Source: Selenomonas sp. AB3002 | GTDB lineage: Bacteria; Bacillota; Negativicutes; Selenomonadales; Selenomonadaceae | DNA length: 64,000 nucleotides | Direction: 5' to 3' | NCBI RefSeq assembly: GCF_000702545.1 | Contig: NZ_JNIO01000008.1 | Coordinates: 744,001 to 808,000, forward strand | Shown: piece by piece, positions 2,500 to 5,863 of the stretch | Layout: each line of letters begins with the position of its first letter | Position numbering within the stretch: position 1 is the first letter of the stretch | The notes under the pieces: generated by a model | The model's input: only the letters and a program-made list of their open reading frames with translations | Told to the model about the DNA's origin: nothing | The model's database searches: none | Program-made: the position numbers and the translations under genes

Positions 2500-3735
2500 T
2501 CAGCAATTATTCTTGCCAACACGAGGCGGGGCAGGAAGAATGACAAAATCCTCCCCGGACTGCCCTCTTGCTTTCAGCAGCAGGGCTATGAGCAAGTTCA
2601 GCACAAAGCAGCCAGCAAAGAAATACAAGGTTGCACCATAACCGCTGGTGCTTTCCCTGAACACAGCAATAAGCGTGGGGCCTGCCAGGCCAGCCATCCC
2701 CCAGGCAGTGAGGATGCGGCCGTGTATGGCGCTGAGCTGACGGGTACCAAAGAGGTCAGAAAGATACGCCGGCATGCAGGAAAAACCACCCCCATAGCAG
2801 GTGATGATCAAAAATACCAAAGCCTGGAACATCAGTGCCTCATTTGTCTGAGCCAAAAGACCAAAAGCCAGGATCTCTATGGCAAAGAACAGGGCATAGG
2901 TAACAGCGCGGCCCAGGAAATCTGAGATGCTGGACCAGAAAATGCGCCCTGCTCCATTGAGGAGGCCGATAATGCCTACCATGGAAGCTGCCTCAGAAGC
3001 CTCCATGCCAACTACCTCCTGAGCCATGGGTGAAGCCACTGCCAAAAGACCGATGCCGCAGGTGATATTCACGAAGAAGATCCACCAAAGTGCCCCAAAC
3101 TGCCAGGTCTTCACAGCTTCCGGAGCAGTAAGTCCATGCTGTCTCTGGCTTATCTGATGCTTCGGAACTTCCAGAACAGGCGGCTTCAGATAAAGGGAGG
3201 AAGCCGCCATCACGACCATATAAGAAAGCCCCATGATGATGAAATTATTGACCAGGCCATAAACTGCGGAAAGGTGCTGCATCAAAGGCCCGGCCAACAG
3301 GGCAGCAAAGCCGAAGCCCATGATGGCAAGTCCCGTAGCAAATCCCCTGTGGCCGGGGAAATACTTCACCAGCGTAGACACTGGCGTGATATAGCCCACT
3401 CCCAGCCCCACACCGCCGATGCAGCCATAAAAAAGATACAGCAGGGGCAGGCTGTGCAGATAAATAGCCAGGGCTGTTCCCAGCATGCCAGCACCAAAGA
3501 AGCAAGTAGCAAGCAGACCGCTTTTCCTGGGACCAATTTTCTCCACGAAACTGCCCAGGAATCCTGCAGAAAGGCCAAGGAAGAGGATGGCAATAGAGAA
3601 CACCCAGGTGACTTCCTTCAAGGTTGCTCCCATTTCCATCATCATGGGCTTGGTGAGCACACTCCAGGCATAGACGCTGCCAATGGAGATGTGAAGACCG
3701 ATGGCAGACAGGGCAATGAGCCAGCGATTTCTCAT
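2500..3735 (-). CDS. OFA-family MFS transporter (oxalate/formate antiporter-like)
   Basis: 411 residues with about twelve hydrophobic segments. The N-terminus IALSAIGLHISIGSVYAWSV and the GGGFSCMPAYLSDLFGTRQLSAIHGRILTAWG segment (about residue 330 on; positions given because of its length) are typical of the OFA family of major facilitator transporters. Family members exchange oxalate and formate or carry other small carboxylates; the substrate here cannot be read from sequence. The ATG at 3735 is preferred because GGAAGG lies just upstream and the first helix begins there. Its leader contains a probable ZTP riboswitch (3809-3904), which supports formate or another one-carbon-related substrate. 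Confidence 0.85.
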   Translation of the reverse strand: MRNRWLIALSAIGLHISIGSVYAWSVLTKPMMMEMGATLKEVTWVFSIAILFLGLSAGFLGSFVEKIGPRKSGLLATCFFGAGMLGTALAIYLHSLPLLYLFYGCIGGVGLGVGYITPVSTLVKYFPGHRGFATGLAIMGFGFAALLAGPLMQHLSAVYGLVNNFIIMGLSYMVVMAASSLYLKPPVLEVPKHQISQRQHGLTAPEAVKTWQFGALWWIFFVNITCGIGLLAVASPMAQEVVGMEASEAASMVGIIGLLNGAGRIFWSSISDFLGRAVTYALFFAIEILAFGLLAQTNEALMFQALVFLIITCYGGGFSCMPAYLSDLFGTRQLSAIHGRILTAWGMAGLAGPTLIAVFRESTSGYGATLYFFAGCFVLNLLIALLLKARGQSGEDFVILPAPPRVGKNNC

Positions 3736-3808
3736 AGGAAACCTTCCTTTCACGAAACTCAAGAAGCTCTGCCCCAAAAACTCAAAGGATTTCTGCCAAC
3801 ACGCAAAA

Positions 3809-3904
3809 GACCGCCTGGGCAGGAACTTCTCGCCCAGACGGTCGGCTTGTAAAGCTTCCCACGGCATGCAGTGAACTCTGCTGAACCGTCAGCCATGGAA
3901 AGCC
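3809..3904 (-). promoter_or_regulatory. Probable ZTP (pfl) riboswitch with its terminator
   Basis: Read on the minus strand, the leader shows in order a UGGCUGACGG block (3895-3886), a small GCAG/CUGC hairpin, a CCGUGGGAAGC block (3864-3854) and ACCGUCUGGGC (3842-3832). These match, from memory, the conserved UGRCUGRCG, CCGGGGAGC and CCGCCUGGGC elements of the ZTP riboswitch. The last block is also the 5' arm of a strong terminator stem, GACCGUCUGGGC with GCCCAGGCGGUC (3809-3843), followed by UUUU. That is the expected ON-switch geometry: ligand holds the block in the aptamer and prevents termination. A covariance-model search was not possible here. Confidence 0.68.
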
Positions 3905-3924
3905 TGTATGCTGTTTTCGCTATC

Positions 3925-3953
3925 AGTATATCATCAAAGGCAAAAAATAGCAA
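3925..3953 (-). promoter_or_regulatory. Promoter of the riboswitch-OFA transporter transcript
   Basis: TTGCTA (3948-3953), a 17-nt spacer and TATACT (3925-3930) on the minus strand put the transcript start near 3918, just ahead of the aptamer. It lies about 30 nt beyond the purD stop, so the transporter can be expressed independently of the purine operon. Confidence 0.6.
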
Positions 3954-3980: not shown

Positions 3981-5261
3981 TCACCCCTGCATTCTTTCCA
4001 GGGCCCTGTGGGCGATATCTTTGCGGTACTGCACACCCTGGAAATGGATCTTCTCCACTCCTGCATAAGCCTTATCCACAGCTGCCTTGATATTCTCAGC
4101 CTCTGCCACCACGCCCAGCACACGGCCGCCGCTGGTGACAATCTTGCCGTCTTTTTCTGCCGTACCGGCATGGAAAACCATGGTGCCTGCCGCTTCAGCT
4201 TCCTCCAGGCCATGGATAGGCGCACCCTTCATATAGCTGCCGGGATAGCCGCCGGAAGCCAGCACTATGCAGACAGCCGCCCCGTCGGACCACTGGATTT
4301 CCTGCTGGTCCAGTTTTCCCTCGCAGCAGGCCAGCATGATTTCCGCCAGATCGCTCTTCAAGAGCGGCAGCACCACCTGGGTCTCCGGGTCGCCAAAACG
4401 GGCGTTGAACTCCACCACCTTGGGACCTTCTGCCGTAATCATCAGGCCGGCATAGAGGCAGCCCTTGTAGGGACGACCCTCGGCCTTCATGCCTGCGATG
4501 ATGGGCTTCAGCACCTTCTCAACAGCAATCTCCACCATGTCAGGAGTCATGACCGGTGCGGGAGCATAGGTGCCCATACCGCCTGTGTTGGGGCCCTTGT
4601 CCCCGTCATAGGCCCGCTTGTGGTCCTGGGAGCTGATCATGGGGACGATGGTCTCGCCGTCTGTGAAGGCCAGCAGCGAAGCTTCCTCTCCCACCATGCA
4701 CTCCTCAATGACCACGCGGCTGCCTGCATTGCCGAAGGAATTTCCTTCCATGATATTGTTGACGGCGGAAATAGCTTCCTCCACCGTCTGGGCTACCACT
4801 ACCCCCTTTCCGGCTGCCAAACCGTCTGCCTTGATGACAATGGGAGCCCCCTGATCCTTCACATAGTCACGGGCTTCCTCGGCCTTGGTGAAGACCTTGA
4901 ATTTGGCCGTGGGAATGTGATATTTTTCCATCATGGCCTTGGCAAAGGATTTGGAACCCTCCAGCTCTGCCGCTGCCTGACTGGGGCCAAAGGCGGGAAT
5001 GCCAGCTTCCTCCAGAGCATCCACCAGGCCACGGGTAAGTGGCGCCTCCGGCCCTACCACTGCCATGTCAATAGCTGCCTGCTGGGCAAAGGCCACGATC
5101 ATCTCGTTGTTGTCCAGGGAAATGCCCTCTACGCACTGGGCTACCTTCGCCATGCCAGGATTGCCGGGGATAGCGAAAATCTGCTCCACCCTGGGGCTCT
5201 GGGCAAGTTTCCAGGCCAGGGTGTGCTCACGGCCGCCGCCGCCGATTACCAGGATATTCAT
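3981..5261 (-). CDS. purD: Phosphoribosylamine-glycine ligase
   Basis: GARS joins 5-phosphoribosylamine and glycine with ATP, the second step of IMP synthesis. It has the full 426-residue length, with the N-terminal VIGGGGREH nucleotide-binding loop, an ATP-grasp core ([17 protein letters not shown] near residue 140; [10 protein letters not shown]) and [12 protein letters not shown] near residue 290. Its start overlaps the purH stop by ATGA. It is the last gene of the purine operon; the next transcript downstream starts at its own promoter and carries the ZTP element. Confidence 0.97.
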
Positions 5262-5863
5262 GCCTTCTCCCCCTGTTTGATGACCTTGGCCAGATAATCC
5301 TTGATAGCCGTATCATAGTCGGCAGTATGGGCAAAAGCTTCCTGAGCCAGTTCCATGCGCAGGCTGTCGCTGACTTCGCCGTCGGCTTCCACCTGAGCTG
5401 CCACCTCCTCATAGCGGGCAGGGTTGGTGACAATGGTGACGAACTTGAAGTTCTTGGCAGCTGCACGGATCATGGCAGGACCGCCGATATCGATGTTTTC
5501 AATAGCTTCAGCCAACTCCACACCGGGCTTGGCAATAGTCTCCTTGAAGGGATAGAGGTTCACCACCACCAGGTCGATGCCCTTGATGCCATGCTCCTGC
5601 ATCTGATTGAGGTGCTCCTGATTGTCACGAACAGAAAGGATGCCGCCGTGGATAAAGGGATTCAGGGTCTTGACCCTGCCATCCATGATCTCGGGGAAGC
5701 CCGTCACATCGCTCACATAGGTCACGGGAATGCCCGCTTCCTTGATAGACTTCATAGTGCCGCCGGTGGAGATGATTTCCACCCCTGCAGCATGAAGCCT
5801 TTTAGCCAGTTCCACAACACCATTCTTATTGGAAACGCTGATCAGCGCGCGCTTGATTTTCAT
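5258..5863 (-). CDS. purH: IMP cyclohydrolase, PurH N-terminal domain only
   Basis: 201 residues covering only the MGS-like IMP cyclohydrolase half of Pur[12 protein letters not shown] at the start, then [26 protein letters not shown] and [15 protein letters not shown]. Usual bifunctional PurH is about 510 residues, with an AICAR transformylase half that is missing here. It ends cleanly after a helical tail and is coupled to purD by ATGA, so it looks like a genuine stand-alone gene and not a truncation. The formylation of AICAR must be done by a protein encoded elsewhere. Confidence 0.93.

Follow-up and report, generated by a model that had tools for sequence, protein, structure and literature searches.

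A ZTP riboswitch in front of a probable formate transporter gene in Selenomonas sp. AB3002

The stretch of DNA analysed here, hereafter the window, comprises 64,000 nt of the genome of Selenomonas sp. AB3002 (NZ_JNIO01000008.1 of assembly GCF_000702545.1, positions 744,001 to 808,000). On its minus strand, a purine operon ending with purD is followed by a promoter-like site, a ZTP riboswitch aptamer, an intrinsic terminator and an MFS gene encoding a probable monocarboxylate transporter (Table 1). A longer ORF of 455 aa opens at 3867, within the aptamer, but this is unlikely to be the start used. Downstream of the transporter gene, larC follows at 0.5 kb. PurH is split in this organism, i.e., the window carries the IMP cyclohydrolase half only, and the AICAR transformylase is encoded separately (L003 7002-8198) with a ZTP riboswitch of its own. 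Separate matches of both PurH halves recur among the rows listed for our sample of 151 genomes of the order.

Table 1. Features of the riboswitch-transporter locus, in window coordinates.
Feature	Positions	Strand	Remarks
Stand-alone IMP cyclohydrolase half of PurH	5258..5863	-	
purD, last gene of the upstream purine operon	3981..5261	-	Stop at 3981; TIGR00877 594 vs cut-off 288
Sigma-70-like promoter, TTGCTA-17-TATACT	3925..3953	-	9/12 matches, TG before second hexamer
ZMP/ZTP (pfl) riboswitch aptamer, RF01750	3825..3906	-	42.5 bits vs gathering 39
Aptamer P1	3904-3895/3862-3853	-	
Aptamer pseudoknot	3890-3886/3841-3837	-	GACGG/CCGUC, complete
Aptamer P2	3881-3878/3871-3868	-	
Aptamer P3	3846-3832	-	
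Intrinsic terminator	3805..3843	-	Stem 3843-3809, U4 3808-3805; -26.4 kcal/mol, z -6.1 vs 200 shuffles
Ribosome binding site, GGAAGG	3742..3747	-	6 nt before ATG; direct sequence reading
MFS monocarboxylate (probable formate) transporter, 411 aa, regulated gene	2500..3735	-	ATG at 3735

The preliminary description of this DNA had underlined that the transporter comes right after the purine operon. This is correct for the window, but it is not a recurring context: tblastn with the PurD, IMP cyclohydrolase, PurN and PurE proteins of the window gave no match beside any of 64 related loci, whose flanks extended over 1.5 or 3 kb, or less where a contig ended. We thus rejected this adjacency as a meaningful context, and the purine operon next to the transporter looks like a local accident. 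Similarly, larC and the PH-domain neighbours were found beside the transporter in 0 of the 64 related loci and were dropped as a clue to lactate. The arrangement that recurs is the aptamer followed by the transporter.

The aptamer was identified by cmscan as the only Rfam family above its gathering score in the whole 64-kb window. The match covers the full RF01750 model (1-86 of 86), with an E-value of 0.0013 for 64 kb and 4227 families, and P1, P2, P3 and the pseudoknot with the conserved GCCGACCGnCUGGGC block are all present. The preliminary description had proposed a ZTP riboswitch from three consensus-like blocks in the right order, the last one being a terminator arm followed by UUUU, with a promoter directly upstream. 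Each of these elements is found in the sequence, and the covariance search that it had suggested returned a score above, and not below, the gathering threshold. We then aligned 27 aptamers, i.e., 25 from transporter leaders of other genomes, that of the window and that of the AICAR transformylase gene of the same genome, in a chosen set from which several near-duplicates were left out. In this alignment, 94.7% of the cells are paired, versus 32-38% when the partners are slid by 1-3 columns, and none of 500 shuffles reached any of five measures. Both sides have changed in 14 of the 23 pairs, a type of count that is inflated by the kinship of the sequences. The pseudoknot varies little; in the most distant row (L057), it reads GGCGG/CCGCC, a compensatory change at one pair, which is A-U in the 26 other rows and G-C in this one. 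The window aptamer is predicted to bind ZMP/ZTP.

The P3-side block of the aptamer also takes part in the terminator, whose U-tract is short (4 U). Indeed, the 5' arm of the terminator consists of P3 and of the 3' strand of the pseudoknot, so the aptamer fold and the terminator are mutually exclusive. Such an overlap is the published layout of ZTP ON switches (PMC10085676; PMC7337938). By its layout, the expression platform is of the transcriptional ON type, and ligand binding would be expected to promote expression; an OFF direction has been proposed for ZTP riboswitches as well, e.g., in the tandem moeA case (PMC9481103, review). A hairpin made from the same 5' arm folds in the leaders of all 34 relatives considered (L008-L041), and in 29 of them a U run follows the stem immediately (not in L017, L022-L024 and L039). 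The terminator rule of the promoter scan (at least 5 T in eight bases, loop of 3-8) missed the 3843-3805 terminator and picked up nothing but a weak stem of 5 pairs at 3775-3763. As for the promoter-like site, with 9 of 12 matches, shuffling of the region yields 0.3 on average, and inspection by eye of the L008-L011 leaders shows a similar pair of hexamers. The window element therefore shares with the ZTP riboswitch class the full-length covariance match, all helices, the pseudoknot and the overlapping intrinsic terminator, but its target is a transporter, which is not among the common targets given in the pfl section of PMC2864571.

We looked for the same arrangement in the 151 genomes of the order. 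ZTP matches occur in 74 of them (135 in total, four below the cut-off), and transporter matches, 68 in number, in 61. An RF01750 match is located 46-145 nt upstream, on the same strand, in 59 of these 68 cases, and it passes the cut-off in 56 of the 59, the sub-cut-off aptamers being those of G024, G046 and G141. Two further leaders (G103 and G132) were judged by eye to carry an aptamer interrupted by an insert, the former reaching 27.6 bits with an E-value of 0.97. When the 59 aptamers recognized by the Rfam model and these two interrupted ones are taken together, a ZTP-linked copy exists in all 61 genomes having the transporter. No aptamer was found before the second copies of G002 and G005 (63% identity), and the rest of the nine unlinked matches are two fragments in G037, the second half of a broken copy in G002 and two weak hits of 34-35%. 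In genus g15, an insert of about 150 nt with hairpin-like repeats splits the ZTP aptamer in two transporter leaders, L098 (1276-1504, minus strand) and L099 (about 440-673), but not at the same place in both. Mitsuokella multacida (L040 3001-4120) and G002 (G002:C6:811005-812118) each have their ZTP-linked transporter copy in two pieces, the latter genome possessing also the full-length 63% copy that lacks an aptamer.

Among 35 transporter relatives in named genome records, which belong to Selenomonas, Anaerovibrio, Mitsuokella, Veillonella and other genera, 30 have an RF01750 match over the cut-off just upstream; the remaining five are the four nearest relatives of the window, with lower scores, and the broken copy L042, with none. 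In a sample of 299 genomes of the phylum, 52 of the transporter matches listed were compared with the ZTP sites, mostly the best-ranked ones, with some second copies and weaker rows omitted. Among these 52, an aptamer lies upstream in 9 of the 11 with at least 60% identity and in 1 of the 41 below 60%. This single case (G241, L057) has 40% identity and an aptamer of 39.4 bits. Hence, the link between the ZTP riboswitch and this transporter is a feature of the present clade within one class, by the record titles the Negativicutes, with this one case seen outside.

The other genes preceded by ZTP riboswitches show the company in which the transporter stands. The second ZTP riboswitch of the genome (contig 2, 57.9 bits) lies before a stand-alone AICAR transformylase gene, and the same is true of 53 of the remaining 76 ZTP sites in the order sample, 58 AICAR transformylase rows of the PF01808 table having been compared with the ZTP sites. 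The other 23 sites, assigned by HMM for 11 of them and by reading of the translation for the other 12, precede pfl (10), xpt-pbuX (6), an FNT channel gene (3), fhs (2) and tatC/ubiD (2). At the last two sites (G019 and G111), fhs follows 4-5 kb further on the same strand, and the G111 site is below the cut-off. The xpt-pbuX sites, all from genus g2 (L082, L083, L085, L087, L093, L095), place the riboswitch before a xanthine phosphoribosyltransferase and a xanthine permease, i.e., before purine salvage and not synthesis. Among these targets, pfl, fhs and AICAR transformylase appear also in the published gene list of the pfl motif (PMC2864571).

On the protein side, the regulated gene had been described as an OFA-family transporter. 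A small-carboxylate transporter it appears to be, but we rejected its membership of the OFA/OxlT group. Indeed, the 411-aa protein scores 190.2 with the OFA model TIGR00890 (cut-off 374.85) and 144.9 with the oxalate/formate model TIGR04259 (cut-off 335), and it passes the cut-off of 320 of the SfMCT L-lactate model NF049980, with 355.2; its relatives L047 and L048 reach 391-393 with the latter. L-lactate transport by the window protein would thus be the annotation given by model score. The closest solved structures by sequence are those of SfMCT, the L-lactate transporter of Syntrophobacter (PDB 6g9x, E 1.8e-30), and then OxlT (PDB 8hpj, E 9.8e-29). The carboxylate-binding residues Arg264, Asn260, Tyr115 and Tyr314 are kept at the substrate site of these two proteins, whose residues are named in PMC10070484 and PMC9814091.

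The window protein shares with SfMCT the equivalents of Arg280, Asn276, Tyr119, Tyr331 and Phe335, but the pocket is not the same: L28, C57, L145, F359 and C362 are replaced by V, I, F, L and W, the last three being F141, L342 and W345. The two differ as well in that the window gene is preceded by a ZTP aptamer. From the oxalate:formate antiporter OxlT, it retains the equivalents of Arg272 and Asn268, but not the basic pair formed by Arg272 and Lys355, as Arg264 is present and Trp345 stands where OxlT has Lys355 and SfMCT Cys362. In OxlT, both basic residues are required for oxalate, and Lys355, conserved in the OFA family, is essential for oxalate transport (PMC10070484). With this lysine absent, the substrate is expected to be a small monocarboxylate rather than oxalate. 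Trp345 is found in all the ZTP-linked relatives aligned (the pocket table excludes L040, L041 and L042, which are short), but several homologues that lack an aptamer have it too, so it is no mark of ZTP control.

The best-fitting curated model is the L-lactate one, and this counts against formate. We nevertheless retain formate, proposed from the start as the substrate, as our best guess, on comparative grounds and no longer on the OFA label. In three genomes of one genus, a gene of the FNT family (formate/nitrite channel) takes the transporter's place behind the ZTP aptamer and the MFS transporter is absent, even though this family, that of FocA and NirC, is unrelated to it (PF01226 vs PF07690). 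Within that genus, the ZTP-FNT arrangement occurs in 3 of 5 genomes without the MFS gene versus 0 of 11 with it (Fisher p 0.018); the exclusion does not reach significance when all 151 genomes sampled in the order are counted (p 0.27), and the three cases probably represent one event. No ZTP-FNT adjacency was seen outside the order in a by-eye comparison of the phylum tables. The two ZTP-preceded FNT proteins that we scored reach neither the FocA nor the FNT-subfamily cut-offs, so that their own substrate is uncertain. A separate locus (G136:C34:13381-15880) has fhs immediately before an FNT gene, both genes being on one strand.

Some neighbours also point to formate. In G081, fhs immediately precedes the ZTP-transporter unit; in G047, it is located 4.5 kb downstream of the transporter, on the same strand; and in G017 the order is folD, ZTP-fhs, one gene of opposite strand and ZTP-transporter. 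Such adjacency is rare, as none of the 64 related loci gave a match to Fhs in its flanks. The genome of Selenomonas sp. AB3002 has Fhs itself. It also encodes an FNT protein away from any ZTP site, by which formate may already be able to enter this cell. For nine more distant or unlinked homologues, wider flanks were fetched and part of the neighbours scanned. A formate dehydrogenase alpha gene lies upstream of the G412 homologue, with one unassigned ORF between; an FdhF/YdeP-family gene (329.6 vs the formate dehydrogenase alpha cut-off of 666) directly follows that of G288; and folP-folBK directly precede that of G193. The G377 homologue is followed by a malate:quinone-oxidoreductase (Mqo) gene, which suggests malate or lactate there. 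Sporulation sigma factors are encoded near the G318 homologue, and the ORFs tested around those of G330, G241, G368 and G002 revealed nothing telling.

From the aptamer with its pseudoknot, the overlapping terminator, the promoter-like site, the conserved linkage and the company of ZTP-preceded genes, we consider it fairly probable that the locus is a ZTP ON riboswitch raising import, most likely that of formate, when 10-formyl-THF is short. In such a shortage, AICAR would remain unformylated and ZMP/ZTP would rise. ZMP/ZTP would bind the nascent aptamer and stabilize the P3/pseudoknot strand; with this strand held, the overlapping terminator would not form and the transporter would be transcribed. 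The cell would then most likely take up formate, or in any case some small monocarboxylate, through the transporter, and formate-THF ligase would convert formate into 10-formyl-THF for the AICAR transformylase. We propose more tentatively, and with real hesitation, that the MFS clade with Arg264 and Trp345 could be a dedicated formate importer, a kind of carrier different from both FNT channels and OxlT antiporters, which ZTP, the alarmone of one-carbon deficiency, would switch on in the Negativicutes.

The same ON switch could serve the import not of formate itself but of L-lactate or pyruvate, from which pyruvate formate-lyase would make formate (after oxidation in the case of lactate). We find this rather unlikely, though it deserves serious weight. 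It agrees with the SfMCT equivalog score of the window protein and of L047 and L048, with the ZTP riboswitches that precede pfl at 10 sites of the order, with the Mqo gene behind the G377 homologue and with larC in the window. The last of these is weakened by the finding that larC does not accompany any of the related loci. Moreover, the replacements of SfMCT L145, F359 and C362 suggest a different, perhaps tighter, cavity, and the FNT gene that replaces the transporter and some of the neighbours favour formate.

As transport direction is unreadable from sequence, and as formate is physiologically released by OxlT (PMC10070484), the protein might instead export an acid, formate or another, accumulating when one-carbon metabolism stalls, the riboswitch turning on efflux. 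This is very improbable in our opinion, since most enzymes of the regulon produce or consume formyl groups or purines, and a loss of formate under a shortage of 10-formyl-THF would presumably be counterproductive. Finally, the aptamer of the window could be decaying, its regulation having been lost in this genus. Its score is near the cut-off (42.5 bits, vs 44.0-66.5 for the transporter-linked matches over the cut-off, with the exception of L057 at 39.4), the two other members of the genus having the transporter in the order sample are below it (38.0 bits in G024 and 34.3 in G046), and the four nearest relatives (L008-L011) have their match at the same place, just under it (34.3-38.9 bits). 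On the other hand, the P3 block, the pseudoknot strands, the terminator and the promoter-like site are kept in the window and in L008-L011, and such a decay seems to us very improbable.

The riboswitch class is already known, and the responses described for it in the sources consulted (among them PMC2864571 and PMC9481103) involve mainly enzymes from purine and folate metabolism. The transporter may be a target unreported so far: in the literature searched, we found no report of a ZTP riboswitch with a formate, oxalate/formate or MFS transporter. The ligand of the riboswitch provides a functional clue to a group of transporters now named 'L-lactate' or 'oxalate/formate' by curated models. If our preferred reading, formate import under ZTP control, is true, it would give a name to a formate importer in common anaerobes of the rumen, the gut and the mouth, where Selenomonas, Anaerovibrio, Mitsuokella, Veillonella and others live. 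It would also tie cross-fed formate to purine synthesis and add uptake to the known ZTP responses, the scavenging of formate from neighbours being then part of the bacterial folate-stress response. This suggests that, in many gut and rumen bacteria, cells may import formate when purine synthesis stalls.
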